Assembly (NCBI GenBank): GCA_025056175.1
Contig: JANWWK010000008.1
Location: 1-64,000, forward strand
Source: Anaerolineales bacterium
GTDB lineage: Bacteria > Chloroflexota > Anaerolineae > Anaerolineales > Villigracilaceae
Reading direction: 5' to 3'
Length of the DNA: 64,000 nt
The translations under genes and the position numbers were made by a program. Of the stretch, positions 35,748 to 39,896 are shown piece after piece (the stretch's first letter is position 1; every line of letters begins with the position of its first letter). Under the pieces are notes generated by a model, which made no database searches, was not told the DNA's origin, and saw only the letters and a list, made by a program, of their open reading frames with translations.

Positions 35748-38700
35748 ATGAACCGAATTTACACCAACCGCCGTTACCTGGATGCACTCGCCGAGCGTGT
35801 TCTCATTTTCGATGGGGCGATGGGCACCAGTTTGCAAAAGCAAAATCTCACCGCCGAACACTTCGGAGGAGAGCAATACAACGGCTGTAACGACTACCTG
35901 GTGATTTCTTACCCCCAGGCGGTCGAGAACGTCCATCGCTCGTTTTTAGAAGTGGGTGTGGATGTGCTGGAAACCGATACTTTCCGTTCCAACCGCCTGA
36001 CCCTGGCAGAATATGGCCTGGCCAACCGTGTTATCGAAATCAACCAGGCAGCGGCACGGCTGGCCAGGCAGCTTGCCGACGAGTATGCCGAAAAGACCGG
36101 TCAACCCCGCTTTGTGGCCGGTTCGATCGGCCCCAGCGGTAAACTTCCCTCTGCCGATGACCCGGAACTCTCGAACATCTCCTTCGATGAACTGGCAGAT
36201 ATCTTCCGCGAGCAAACCGTCGGCCTGATACGCGGCGGGGTGGATGTCGTCCTCATCGAGACGTCACAGGACATCCTGGAAGTGAAAGCCGCCATTCACG
36301 GTATCCTGCGCGCTTTTGAGCAGACGGGCGTCTGGCTGCCGATTCAGGCGCAGGTGACGCTCGATACCAGCGGACGGATGCTGCTTGGCACCGACATCGA
36401 AGCCGCGCTGACCATCCTGGAAGGGCTGCCGATTGATGTCATCGGCCTGAACTGCTCCACCGGTCCCGAACACATGCGCGAACCGATTCGCATTCTCGGT
36501 GAGAGTTCGCGCCTGCCGGTTTCGTGCATTCCCAACGCCGGCTTGCCGCTCAACGTAGATGGGCAGGCCGTCTATCCGCTCGAACCGGAACCGTTCGCCG
36601 AGGCGCTTTTCGAGTTTGTGGAAAAACACAAGATTTCGGTGGTCGGCGGCTGTTGCGGCACCACACCGGCGCATCTTCAGCGGCTGGTGCAAAAACTGCG
36701 CGGACGTCCCCGCCCGCCGCGTCCCATCTTGAACCTGCCGCGCCTGGCCTCCGGCGTGCGCGCTTACGATATGCGCCAGGACCCGCCGCCGTTCCTCATC
36801 GGCGAACGGCTCAACGCTCAGGGCAGCCGTGCCTTCAAGCGACTTCTACTGGCAGAAGATTGGGACGCGATTCTGACGATTGCTCAGGACCAGATTTCCA
36901 ACGGCGCACACGGGTTGGATATTTCCGTTGCCGTCACCGAACGCGCCGATGAACCCTATCTCATGCGCCAGGTGGTGCGAAAACTGGTGACCGCTGGTAT
37001 CGAATTGCCGCTGGTGATAGATACGACCGAGCTGGACGTTCTCGAAACGGCGCTCAAAACCGCGCCGGGGCGCTGTCTCATCAATTCCACGCACTTCGAG
37101 AGCGGCCGCGCCAAAGCCGATAAAGTCTTTCAACTGGCAAAAGAACACAACGCCGCTGTCATCATCCTGACGATTGACGAACAAGGCATGGCAAAAACAC
37201 GCGAGCGCAAACTGGAGGTTGCCAGGCGCATTTACGAGGTGGCCGTGAACGAACACGGCTTATCGCCCTCAGACCTGGTGTTCGATGACCTGACCTTTAC
37301 CCTCGCCACCGGAGACCCGGAATTTGCCAACTCGGCCATCGAAACCATCGAGGGGATTCGTCTCATCAAACAACATCTGCCCGGCGTGCTGACCTCGCTG
37401 GGCGTCTCCAATCTATCCTTTGGATTAGCGCCGCACGCCCGCCCCACGCTGAACTCAGTCATGCTCTATCACTGCGTGCAGGCCGGGTTGGATATGGCGA
37501 TCGTCAACCCGGCACACGTCACGCCGTATGCTGAAATCTCCACCGAGGAGCGCGAACTGGCCGAGGACCTCATCTTCAACCGCCGCCCCGATGCGCTTCA
37601 GCGTTACATCGAGTACTTTGAGGGTCGTAAGGGCAGCGCCCAGAAACAACAAACCGACCCCACCGAAGGGATGACGCCGGCTCAACGCATTCACTGGCGC
37701 ATCGTGGCGCGGCATAAGGAAAATATCGAGGCGGATATTGATGCGTTGATAGAGGCGTTGACCCTCCCCCCCCAACCCCCGACCCTCGCCCCTAACCCCT
37801 CTTCCACAGGGAGAGGGGGACAGGCGCATCCGCGCCTGCCGGCAGAACTCAAAGCCCGCATTCGGGAACTGCGTAAAAACGCTACCGAAGCAGAAGCCTT
37901 CCTGTGGAGCATTCTCCGCAACCGGGCGTTTCACCATTTCAAATTCCGCCGCCAGCATCCAATTGGCAGGTTCATCCTGGATTTCTATTGCCACGCAGCA
38001 CGGCTTGCCATCGAACTGGATGGGTATCCTCACACAACCACAGAACAAAGACAAATGGATGCAGAACGCGACCAGATTTTGCGAGAACAATACGGCGTTG
38101 AGGTACTTCGGTTCTGGAACAAGGATTTGCTCGAAAGCCCCGAAGATACGCTCGAACAAATCTGGAATGCTTTGCAAGCGCGGGTTGTTCCCTCACCCCT
38201 GGCCCCTCTCCCATCGGGAGAGGGGGACTCCCTTCCCCCTTCGGGGGAAGGGACGGGGATGAGGGCACTCCCCCCCTCTCCCGATGGGAGAGGGGAAGGG
38301 GGTGAGGGCGCACCCCCTCTCCCAGCGGGAGAGGGCCGGGGTGAGGGCGCACTCCCTCTCCCACCGGGAGAGGGCCGGGGTGAGGGCGCACCCGGCATGA
38401 CCCGCCACGAAGCCGCCGTTCACATCCTCAACACCGTCCTTCTGCCTGCCATGAAGGAAGTCGGCGACAAATTCGGCGCGGGCGAACTGATTTTACCGTT
38501 CGTTCTGCAATCGGCAGAGGTGATGAAAAAAGCCGTCGCCCATCTGGAAAACTATTTGGAAAAGGTAGAAGGCGTCACCAAAGGCACAGTTGTCCTTGCC
38601 ACCGTGTATGGCGATGTCCATGACATCGGCAAAAACCTGGTCAAAACCATACTGGTCAACAATGGCTACACCGTGATTGATTTGGGCAAACAAGTGCCGG

Positions 38701-39896
38701 CCGAGACCATCATCAGCAAAGCGGTCGAAGTAGATGCCACCGCCATCGGCTTGAGCGCCTTACTGGTCAGCACATCCAAACAAATGCCGCTCATCGTCAA
38801 CGAACTGCACCGACGCGGGTTGAAATTTCCTGTGCTGGTGGGTGGTGCGGCCATCAACCGCCGCTTTGGGCGCAGAATTTTGCAAACTGAGAGCGGTGAC
38901 TACTACGAACCAGGCGTTTTCTACTGTAAAGACGCCTTCGAAGGCCTGGAAACAATGGACATTCTGATAGATGCTTCCCGGCGCCCGGCCTTCCTGGAAA
39001 AAATCCGCCAGGAAGCCGACATGGAACTGGGACGGGCAGCCGCCAAACAGGAACACAGAGAAACCGGAACACGTTCGAACATCACTCCGCAGCCGCTCTC
39101 CCTGCCGAATGGCGTTAACTTCGGCTGGAGAGTTGTCCGCGCCATGCCGCTGGAAATCGTCTTCCAACATCTGAACATCAACGAACTCTACCGCCTTTCG
39201 TGGGGCGCAAAGAACGCTCATGGCGCCGAATGGGAAAAACTGAAAGCCGAATTCGACACCCGTCTGGAACGCATGAAGCGTGAAGCCCTGAAAACCGGCT
39301 GGCTCAAACCGCAGGGTGTCTACGGCTATTTCCCCTGCCAATCGGATGGAGACGACCTCATCATTTACTCCCCTCTCCCTGTGGGAGAGGGGACGGGGAT
39401 GAGGGAGCTGACCCGCTTCGTCTTCCCACGTCAGCCTTATGACGAACATCTGTGCCTGGCCGATTACTTCGCGCCGGTCGACTCGGGCGTGTTTGATGTG
39501 GTCGCCTTCCAGGTCGTCACCGTCGGGCAAAGCGCCACCGAAAAATTCGACGCTCTGCAGGCCGCCAACGACTACACCGAAGCCTATTTCGTGCATGGAC
39601 TGGCCGTCCAGACCGCCGAAGCCACCGCCGAATACCTGCATCGTCACGTGCGCCGTGAGTTAGGATTAGCCGAAGGACAGGGCAAACGCTACTCTTGGGG
39701 TTACCCGGCCATCCCCGACCTGGAAGACCATCGCAAAGTCTTCGACCTGCTTCCTGCCGAGCGGGAGCTGGGCATGACTCTCAGCCCGGCGTATCAGTTA
39801 ATCCCCGAACAATCCACCGCGGCAATTATCGTGCATCACCCGCAGGCAAAGTATTACTCAGTCGGCGAGAGCCGGGTAGAACAGTTGATGCGGTAG
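35748..39896 (+). CDS. metH: Cobalamin-dependent methionine synthase with in-frame DUF559 insertion
   Basis: MetH transfers a methyl group from methyl-tetrahydrofolate to homocysteine through cobalamin. The 1382-residue frame has all four modules. The homocysteine domain (about 1-320) has Zn ligands C236 (GLNCSTGPEH) and C302/C303 (GGCCGTTP). The pterin domain (about 345-620) has GERLNAQGSRAFK and HGLDISVAV. The cobalamin cap and binding domains follow (about 885-1085), with H958 in YGDVHDIGKN and LSALLVSTS. The activation domain (about 1115-1380) has RYSWGYPAIPDL. Between pterin and cobalamin modules, about 211 extra residues (671-882) hold a DUF559 endonuclease domain plus GEG-rich repeats; a short repeat copy lies at about 1208-1219. 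Without them the length is normal. The cobalamin histidine and other ligands are intact, so the enzyme may tolerate the insertions. Confidence 0.93.
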   Translation: MNRIYTNRRYLDALAERVLIFDGAMGTSLQKQNLTAEHFGGEQYNGCNDYLVISYPQAVENVHRSFLEVGVDVLETDTFRSNRLTLAEYGLANRVIEINQAAARLARQLADEYAEKTGQPRFVAGSIGPSGKLPSADDPELSNISFDELADIFREQTVGLIRGGVDVVLIETSQDILEVKAAIHGILRAFEQTGVWLPIQAQVTLDTSGRMLLGTDIEAALTILEGLPIDVIGLNCSTGPEHMREPIRILGESSRLPVSCIPNAGLPLNVDGQAVYPLEPEPFAEALFEFVEKHKISVVGGCCGTTPAHLQRLVQKLRGRPRPPRPILNLPRLASGVRAYDMRQDPPPFLIGERLNAQGSRAFKRLLLAEDWDAILTIAQDQISNGAHGLDISVAVTERADEPYLMRQVVRKLVTAGIELPLVIDTTELDVLETALKTAPGRCLINSTHFESGRAKADKVFQLAKEHNAAVIILTIDEQGMAKTRERKLEVARRIYEVAVNEHGLSPSDLVFDDLTFTLATGDPEFANSAIETIEGIRLIKQHLPGVLTSLGVSNLSFGLAPHARPTLNSVMLYHCVQAGLDMAIVNPAHVTPYAEISTEERELAEDLIFNRRPDALQRYIEYFEGRKGSAQKQQTDPTEGMTPAQRIHWRIVARHKENIEADIDALIEALTLPPQPPTLAPNPSSTGRGGQAHPRLPAELKARIRELRKNATEAEAFLWSILRNRAFHHFKFRRQHPIGRFILDFYCHAARLAIELDGYPHTTTEQRQMDAERDQILREQYGVEVLRFWNKDLLESPEDTLEQIWNALQARVVPSPLAPLPSGEGDSLPPSGEGTGMRALPPSPDGRGEGGEGAPPLPAGEGRGEGALPLPPGEGRGEGAPGMTRHEAAVHILNTVLLPAMKEVGDKFGAGELILPFVLQSAEVMKKAVAHLENYLEKVEGVTKGTVVLATVYGDVHDIGKNLVKTILVNNGYTVIDLGKQVPAETIISKAVEVDATAIGLSALLVSTSKQMPLIVNELHRRGLKFPVLVGGAAINRRFGRRILQTESGDYYEPGVFYCKDAFEGLETMDILIDASRRPAFLEKIRQEADMELGRAAAKQEHRETGTRSNITPQPLSLPNGVNFGWRVVRAMPLEIVFQHLNINELYRLSWGAKNAHGAEWEKLKAEFDTRLERMKREALKTGWLKPQGVYGYFPCQSDGDDLIIYSPLPVGEGTGMRELTRFVFPRQPYDEHLCLADYFAPVDSGVFDVVAFQVVTVGQSATEKFDALQAANDYTEAYFVHGLAVQTAEATAEYLHRHVRRELGLAEGQGKRYSWGYPAIPDLEDHRKVFDLLPAERELGMTLSPAYQLIPEQSTAAIIVHHPQAKYYSVGESRVEQLMR
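37761..38392 (+). mobile_element. DUF559 (Vsr-like) endonuclease element inserted in frame in metH
   Basis: Residues 697-814 of MetH (37836-38189) form a complete DUF559 domain: ELKARIRELRKNATEAEAFLW, FHHFKFRRQHPIGRFILDFYC with D745, LAIELDGYPH with E756 and D758, EVLRFWNKDLL. This is the PD-(D/E)XK nuclease fold of Vsr. It is bounded on the left by CCCTCTTCCACAGGGAGAGGGGG-type palindromes and on the right by a five-unit array. About 632 bases (a multiple of three within the uncertainty of the ends) keep the frame open. It is the sole evident mobile-type element of the window. No separate SD or start is needed, but a free domain could be made from internal starts. Confidence 0.75.
38190..38392 (+). 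repeat. Five-unit GC-rich palindromic repeat array in metH
   Basis: Units of the form CCCTCTCCC-NNN-GGGAGAGGG followed by a GGTGAGGGCGCAC-type tail are repeated. The last two (38315-38352 and 38354-38391) have a 39-base period (13 codons) and differ at two or three bases. They encode GEG-rich linkers such as PLPPGEGRGEGA. Units are palindromic, can fold into hairpins, and stay in frame. Confidence 0.85.
39370..39405 (+). repeat. Single repeat copy inserted in frame in the MetH activation domain
   Basis: CCCTCTCCCTGTGGGAGAGG followed by GGACGGGGATGAGGG matches a unit of the 38190-38392 array; GGGACGGGGATGAGGG is shared exactly with 38251-38266. It encodes SPLPVGEGTGMR in the loop after DDLIIY, where E. 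coli MetH has a short surface loop. Confidence 0.8.

Follow-up and report, generated by a model that had tools for sequence, protein, structure and literature searches.

A DUF559 nuclease bordered by palindromic triplex-motif repeats within methionine synthase: a likely unspliced in-frame mobile element

A guest domain in metH

The analysed window is a 64,000-nucleotide stretch of an Anaerolineales genome (contig JANWWK010000008.1), which comprises 3.57 Mb with a completeness rating of 100% and belongs to the same genus as the genomes G002 and G003. Within the window, the methionine synthase gene metH forms a single open frame (Table 1). The Pfam content of the encoded MetH consists of the S-methyltransferase, pterin-binding, B12-binding, and activation domains, together with DUF559 (PF04480), which matches residues 701–809 (E 9.2e-33) with 112.8 bits, as compared to the curated cut-off of 20.6. 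An earlier note, made from the DNA letters alone, had reported a Vsr-like DUF559 domain with the residues D745, E756, and D758 between the pterin-binding and cobalamin-binding modules, in a frame open on both sides. The order of the Pfam matches and the uninterrupted frame bear this out, and the guest retains E716, D745, E756, D758, and H762. D745, E756, and D758 correspond to positions D49, E60, and D62 of our alignment A3. All 45 rows of this alignment share E20, D49, E60, and H66, and the conservation of D62 is 90% or more.

Without the 211 residues of the insert, the 1382-residue MetH would have 1171 residues, close to the guest-free metH frames of its relatives (mostly ~1170–1230 aa), and the earlier claim of a normal length without them thus holds. 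Because the B12-binding_2 match begins at residue 888 with profile position 28 of 74, we infer that a loop within the cobalamin cap domain is the probable site of the insert. The profile search found one Met_synt_B12 match and no MetE-type (Meth_synt_2) match in the window genome, which is rated complete. Therefore, we infer that the fused MetH is probably the sole methionine synthase of this bacterium and must work with the guest in place.

DUF559 occupies the matching metH linker in five other genomes (G002, G003, G014, G017, and G042) of the 61 searched. This identical arrangement in several genomes rules out an assembly join of two genes, and the stop codon that the earlier note feared between them does not exist. 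In five of the six metH copies, the 85 nt preceding the domain contain no in-frame ATG, GTG, or TTG; such a codon is present in some of the other guests. The splicing (Hint) family is absent among the eight Pfam families listed for MetH, which leaves an intein unsupported. An Rfam search of positions 37500–38700 gave no family at the gathering score, and its 30 hits at E ≤1 were mostly hairpin RNAs. A group I or group II intron is likewise unsupported, given the lack of a known intron RNA in this search and the frame, which is open throughout.

Table 1. Positions of metH, its guest domain, and the TM units in the window
Feature	Position	Strand	Basis
metH, 1382 aa, single open frame	35748..39896	+	ORF and Pfam
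Left-end TM unit: CCCTCGCCCC tail and one-mismatch hairpin (CCCCTCTTCCACAGGGAGAGGGG)	37783..37818	+	
Guest DUF559 / Vsr-fold nuclease domain, MetH residues 697-811	37836..38180	+	Pfam, alignment, structure model
TM unit R1, left-type orientation (CCCTCACCCCTGG and hairpin)	38190..38225	+	
TM unit R2, right-type orientation (hairpin and GGGGATGAGGG)	38230..38266	+	
TM unit R3, right-type	38273..38309	+	
TM unit R4, right-type; equals E. coli TMECO no. 1 except for the loop	38315..38348	+	
TM unit R5, right-type; right end of the element (..GGGGTGAGGG)	38354..38387	+	
In-frame TM-only insert in the metH activation domain, SPLPVGEGTGMRE replacing a variable loop	39370..39405	+	

Fold of the guest

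A profile search of the PDB with alignment A3 retrieved 3hrl, an endonuclease-like protein (E 1.6e-31), and 3r3p, the homing endonuclease I-Bth0305I (E 2e-4), which is the only characterised nuclease in the list; the weak matches at E ≥0.03 were taken as chance. The AlphaFold model of the guest alone has a pLDDT of 94, and Foldseek returned 3hrl and 3r3p again as its best two structures, with 3r3p second (E 2.1e-3, TM-score 0.75 by target). By profile and predicted structure, the guest meets the definition of the Vsr-fold / EDxHD homing endonuclease relation. In contrast, the model of the fused MetH piece is poor: its mean pLDDT is 58 and the host helices also score low, with the guest at ~66–91 and the repeat-encoded linkers at ~50 or less. 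These linkers are probably disordered, if the model is a guide.

E. coli YcjD was already placed in the PD-(D/E)XK superfamily and linked to Vsr, according to the accessible part of PMC1189080. In a Caulobacter methyltransferase mutant, the SOS response requires the DUF559 protein VsrA, and the authors propose very-short-patch or mismatch repair as the explanation (PMC12907096, as far as its accessible text goes). DUF559 might accordingly be a host-serving, Vsr-type mismatch repair nuclease, around which repeats gather incidentally and which is fused into host frames by accident. E. coli Vsr (1vsr) is indeed a fold neighbour of the guest, but it ranks lower (E 0.11), and I-Bth0305I fits the fold better.

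Hairpin units around the guest and in the genome

The earlier note had described GC-rich palindromic repeats bordering the domain, and C/G-rich hairpins indeed lie on both sides. One palindrome is matched five times around the guest, at 37797 (with one mismatch), 38204, 38274, 38315, and 38354, and a sixth match, at 39371, lies within the activation domain and keeps the frame. Shuffled sequences gave 0.03 expected matches per window, and none of the 100 shuffles reached six, which rules out chance palindromes.

These units belong to a known family. The window sequence CCCTCTCCCAGCGGGAGAGGGCCGGGGTGAGGGC matches CCCTCTCCCTGTGGGAGAGGGCCGGGGTGAGGGC of the published E. coli table, where it represents the “intrastrand triplex motif” (TMECO; Holder et al. 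2015, PMC4666352, of which a part was available), and we hereafter call the unit TM. The membership feature, a C/T-rich hairpin followed by the third-strand block GGGGTGAGGG, is met at the level of sequence, with no triplex data. The window genome contains 109 TM copies at ≤1 mismatch, as compared to 1 for a reversed-pattern control, and a single DUF559. Other TM-only inserts in open frames were seen by eye elsewhere in this genome, without a Pfam check, and by eye the activation-domain loop also carries TM-like peptides in G003, G022, G009, and G035.

Two further arrangements of TM units were observed. A MITE-like element of ~150 bp, with the terminal repeats GTAACTATCTA..TAGATAGTTAC, holds two TM units 80 nt apart (L253, L260, and L263; C12, C26, and C35 of the window genome), and a piece of a further copy is found at the end of a contig (L256). 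At L257:185-560, about ten TM units follow one another with a 39-nt period in an open frame, so that the unit number could vary without a frame shift.

The metH and ValS sites across relatives

How is the metH linker occupied in the relatives? It is polymorphic: short or empty, filled with TM alone, filled with other repeat-like peptides, or occupied by DUF559. DUF559 and TMs are present together in G000, G002, G003, G014, and G017, and G042 has TM hairpins on the left side only. Only TM-like peptides, identified by eye, are found in G007, G015, G016, and G047, and a metH fragment of G035 begins at a contig end inside TM peptides (also by eye). The linkers of G060 and G026 carry other repeat-like peptides, TDYTDYTDFTEEKSAESVKSVV (L081) and SPITNYQLP (L017), respectively; the metH loop thus seems to tolerate several unrelated inserts. 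The comparison for empty sites that the earlier note had proposed is thereby made, and the outcome that would have refuted the note's reading, with all close relatives occupied and repeats absent, was not met, since the relatives are polymorphic and the repeats are present.

A second site lies in valyl-tRNA synthetase (ValS). The guest is present in G043, G452, G453, and G449 (in G449 from the match extent and the guest sequence), and absent from G450, G451, G056, G455, and G456, with TM remnants in G458; both states occur among the members of one genus. The ValS copies represent the minimal form of the element: CTCCCTCACCC..hairpin, ~400 nt including DUF559, and hairpin..GTGAGGG. In G041, from another family, the contig ends inside a left-type TM at the protein site used in G043 (L279), which suggests that the assembly gap conceals one more insert.

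Neither ValS nor the metH activation loop showed a target-site duplication, and the linkers are too variable for a clean test. At both of these sites, the linker residues of the empty allele are replaced rather than cleanly interrupted. The genomes compared include no very close strain pair with and without an insert.

Hosts and distribution of DUF559

Besides MetH, 13 protein families, identified by Pfam and found in several phyla, serve as hosts with an open frame on both sides of the guest: ValS, UvrA, an HrpA-type helicase (two sites), a YgiQ-like radical SAM protein, HMG-CoA reductase, lipoyl ligase A/B, PIG-L, a UvrD-like helicase, and the MmeI-like, Eco57I-like, HsdM, type ISP, and DUF1156 proteins. 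The HrpA-type name is one that we assume from the DUF3418 set of this host, and the YgiQ-like name is also an assumption. Five hosts, namely lipoyl ligase, HMG-CoA reductase, radical SAM, MmeI, and type ISP, show two separate matches to their own domain, the best of which falls entirely or nearly so on one side of the guest. We infer that the guest splits these five domains, although the location of the second match is not given. Three further hosts are incomplete or doubtful: the contig of the kinase L069 ends just past the guest, the frame of the methylase-like L071 is cut before it, and in the MetF-like L068 the guest is only an N-terminal extension, possibly by read-through.

Frames of at least 100 aa are open on both sides of DUF559 at 47 of the 79 full-length loci from named genomes and at 14 of the 66 from relatives; contig ends cut some frames, and the two locus sets overlap. 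Of 79 DUF559 rows from the 61 genomes (E ≤2.5e-20), 18 lie in stop-free frames of at least 300 aa, as compared to one row with a frame >300 aa among the matches listed for PIN, a control family of small nucleases. A search of 400 genomes of the phylum found matches at E ≤1e-20 in 114, and all eight matches above 186 bits lie in frames of 792–1407 aa. The named carriers, not all of which have DUF559 in frame in a host, include Chloroflexi, Geobacteraceae, other Desulfuromonadales, Gallionella, Sideroxydans, Undibacterium, Ignavibacteria, Bacteroidota, and Zixiibacteriota. A plasmid search returned 43 records, all below 60% identity. The locus L126 (G012:C18:54500-63000) holds a cluster of several partial DUF559 pieces.

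A useful domain fusion, in which the nuclease lends its host an activity such as DNA targeting, could make sense in the several hosts that take part in restriction-modification or otherwise act on DNA. No use is evident in MetH, ValS, HMG-CoA reductase, lipoyl ligase, or PIG-L, the ValS guest is not shared by all members of one genus, and the linkers are modelled with low confidence and are probably disordered. We regard this explanation as very improbable.

Phylogeny, selection, and transfer of the guests

The tree was built from the 66 full-length sequences of 89 DUF559 hits. In this tree, 12 rows form a clade (support 100/98) in which 12 of 12 lie in frames of at least 300 aa and none is free-standing; six further in-frame rows fall outside it. 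The G042 metH guest is the sister of a UvrD-like guest, and metH was therefore entered at least twice.

The median pN/pS is 0.21 in 18 metH guests, as compared to 0.20 for the host segment. The dN/dS values are 0.05–0.24 for the closest metH guest pairs among those listed, where computable, and 0.06–0.10 for the three of six ValS guest pairs that could be computed, with synonymous sites near saturation. As judged from these substitution ratios, the guests are under purifying selection.

The guest alignment (14 full-length rows) rejects the MetH host tree by 125 log-likelihood units (p-AU 8e-63). This test left out L171 and four partial rows; all 19 rows gave 153 log units. Six host windows of the same length differ from the host tree by only 12–40 log units, and three of the six are also significant. 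Because the conflict of the guest is far larger, the alignments indicate that guests moved between the metH genes of different species, or were replaced there, to an extent that exceeds the background discordance seen for the host gene itself. A single metH insertion followed by vertical descent is supported neither by the DUF559 tree nor by this test. What the earlier note saw in one gene is more general: its repeats are a known family, one DUF559 clade is exclusively in frame, and metH is not special.

Pairing of the nuclease with the hairpin type

We counted C/T-armed hairpins within 250 nt of DUF559 at the loci with flanks of this length, 73 of 79 in the named set and 55 of 66 in the relatives' set. 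The named set was found with the in-frame guests as the query and thus leans to that lineage; the relatives' set was found by Pfam alone. At the named loci, TM-type hairpins flank DUF559 on both sides in 45 cases, on one side in 22, and on neither in 6. The search for DUF559 flanked by matching repeats, which the earlier note had suggested, therefore succeeds on at least one side at 67 of 73 loci. The hairpin density is 4.19 per kb, as compared to 0.11 beyond 1 kb (~38 times the background), and none of 958 control windows has hairpins on both sides, with any hairpin in 4.6%. The relatives' loci have hairpins on both sides in 18 cases, on one side in 16, and on neither in 21 (2.59 vs 0.04 per kb), and none of their 247 control windows has them on both sides. 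The criterion misses imperfect units; among those left uncounted are the TMs on the left side in G000 and G003 and the TMECO near ycjD.

The ends of the element recur as well. A left CTCAyCC together with a right GGrTGAG is present at 20 of 47 embedded loci and at 9 of 25 other named loci, with 0.03–0.07 expected per motif per 250 nt. Both motifs are found on both sides, because the units often occur in inverted pairs. The pyrimidine content of the outer 14 nt separated the inner from the outer sides poorly.

The nuclease and its own hairpin type go together in the genome. The UvrA guests of G047 and G060 are bordered by CTCCCTTnnnAAGGGAG hairpins, which have 11 and 9 copies in these genomes (≤1 mismatch) and no more than 2 in the other 59. 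The CCTTCCCTnnnAGGGAAGG type has 11, 8, 5, 3, and 1 copies in its five carriers; G034 has 4, and no other genome has more than 2. After the removal of the nuclease-adjacent copies, the tests of these two types gave p 0.0005 and 0.001, the flavour-B test being weaker after this removal (p 0.001). The median TM number is 41.5 in the carriers of the in-frame clade (n=12) and 2 in the others (n=49; p 4e-5), a comparison that includes nuclease-adjacent copies and has no kinship correction.

The repeats might instead be spread by other machinery, such as a transposase, replication slippage, or template switching at triplex DNA, with DUF559 as the cargo between two TMs. TMs far outnumber the nuclease (109 vs 1 in the window genome), some lie within the MITE-like element with its own terminal repeats, and a good DUF559 is missing from some genomes with many TMs: in G034, 150 TMs stand against one partial, weak match (E 2.4e-12, in a 1503-aa frame), and G007 and G020 have 14 and 11 TMs with no DUF559 match. 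Cargo should be diverse, yet one nuclease family recurs beside TMs in several phyla, with the reservation that the loci were sought by DUF559 and other cargo would be missed. Moreover, the hairpin type that multiplies in a genome is that of its nuclease, and the accessible part of Holder et al. describes no mobility gene, transposase, or integrase near the E. coli TMECO sites (PMC4666352). Transport of DUF559 as mere cargo is, in our judgement, quite unlikely.

The repair explanation introduced above draws support from the DUF559 genes that stand apart from the repeats. By our hairpin criterion, no TM-type hairpin lies on either side of 20 of 41 not-embedded loci in the relatives' set, about half, as compared to 1 of 14 embedded ones there and 6 of 47 embedded loci in the named set. 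It leaves unexplained the clade found only in frame, the polymorphic sites, the conflict between the guest and host trees, and the hairpin types matched to the nuclease, and we consider it unlikely as well, though somewhat less so than cargo transport.

The free-standing DUF559 genes of L034 and L037 have other upstream hairpins (TCCCCAAATCC.. and CCTCCCCCAAATC.., respectively) and no TM-type ones; these are perhaps another cognate repeat type.

The E. coli ycjD gene

In E. coli K-12, TMECO no. 9 of the published table lies 167 nt downstream of ycjD, which is annotated as DUF559, and the chance that one of the 18 TMECO regions lies so near is ~0.003. The end of ycjD itself falls in degenerate TM-like sequence, as seen by eye and unlisted by the hairpin finder. 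The ycjD region is present at ≥80% coverage in 3333 of 5426 E. coli genomes, and according to the part of PMC12817139 available to us, ycjD occupies the place of the eef operon where the latter is absent. The E. coli control genome of our family search gave no DUF559 match, which would fit a strain without ycjD.

Proposed mechanism

We think it likely that the metH guest represents an unspliced, in-frame mobile element, composed of a DUF559 nuclease and its cognate palindromic TM repeat, although its cutting and movement are unobserved. The earlier note's proposal of an intein-like but unspliced element in a domain linker fits the lack of a Hint domain and of an intron RNA, the polymorphic site, the many hosts, and the tree conflict, all of which come from DNA comparison with the protein product unexamined. 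Genome comparison establishes the in-frame position, the polymorphic sites, the many hosts, the adjacent hairpins, the purifying selection, the tree conflict, and the type matching; the steps of cutting and copying set out below are inferred. For homing, the backing is only indirect, from the polymorphic site and the tree conflict.

The element: A nuclease frame without its own stop is bounded by inverted TM units, with CCCTCAyCC and a hairpin on the left and a hairpin and GGrTGAGGG on the right. It resides in loops of host proteins and would be translated as a guest domain with TM-encoded linkers.

Movement: The nuclease may cut TM-hairpin DNA or the vacant host site, and repair from the occupied copy would then introduce the element, the numerous TM arms serving either as homology or as targets. 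The TM-only copies would be non-autonomous or decayed forms.

Maintenance: An in-frame site in a needed gene would provide expression and make disruptive loss costly.

More tentatively, and with slightly less than even confidence, we suggest that DUF559 recognises the TM hairpin, the triplex, or the CCCTCAyCC end, which would make each TM both a target and a homology arm, and that one lineage, having lost its stop and usually its start, lives only in frame and unspliced in host proteins, some of them housekeeping enzymes with a single copy, and reaches the same loop of the protein in other species by homing.

The mobile element proposed here would offer an enzyme for a widespread repeat family whose spread its describers could not explain, and it points to mobile DNA that spares the host gene without splicing, as an extra domain kept in the protein. 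It would alter the annotation of DUF559 genes and of the “PLPxGEG / GRGAGGEG” protein inserts, and the insertion sites are natural data on protein loops that tolerate 100–200 added residues. Since K-12 ycjD lies beside a TM, the question is directly testable in E. coli.

Comparison with known systems

The repeat is the same as TMECO, which in K-12 is always intergenic according to the accessible part of Holder et al. (PMC4666352), whereas here it occurs in frame and paired with a nuclease. I-Bth0305I is the closest characterised enzyme, being the only such nuclease by profile and second by fold. In the portion of PMC3943268 available, its active site is grouped with the PD-(D/E)xK type, and it is counted among the endonucleases of group I introns; its DNA-binding regions are long, and its target spans nearly 60 bp. 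In contrast, the guest has only ~115 aa, no surrounding intron, and TM hairpins at its borders.

The TM-only inserts of metH meet the tested feature of the rickettsial palindromic elements (RPE), that is, a palindromic insert in frame in a protein gene. RPE is a different repeat and is not known to carry a nuclease. We regard the TM inserts as analogous to RPE rather than as members; one in-frame RPE example is given in the accessible part of PMC5656822.

In the literature searched, which excludes most subscription papers, we found no link between DUF559 and TM and no comparable in-frame nuclease guests. Fungal mitochondria have in-frame fusions of homing endonucleases and double-hairpin elements inserted in genes; those are other nuclease families, in organelles, and we know of no pairing there of a nuclease with a genome-wide TM family. 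Inteins with a homing nuclease also place it in frame inside housekeeping enzymes, whereas the guest lacks a splicing domain and remains in the protein, as far as can be read from the DNA. The RAYT system combines a single HUH transposase with many type-matched REP/REPIN hairpin repeats with inverted ends. The enzyme beside the TM repeats is instead PF04480, with a Vsr-like fold and a PD-(D/E)XK-type active site, and its guests are in frame; the definition of RAYT/REP, an HUH Y1 transposase beside the repeat, is not fulfilled. Mobility is unproven, but as the element lacks the tested defining feature of inteins, introns, and RAYT/REP, we think that it likely represents a class of mobile DNA of its own, and that it is a candidate for what drives the TM repeat family, whose origin has been unknown.
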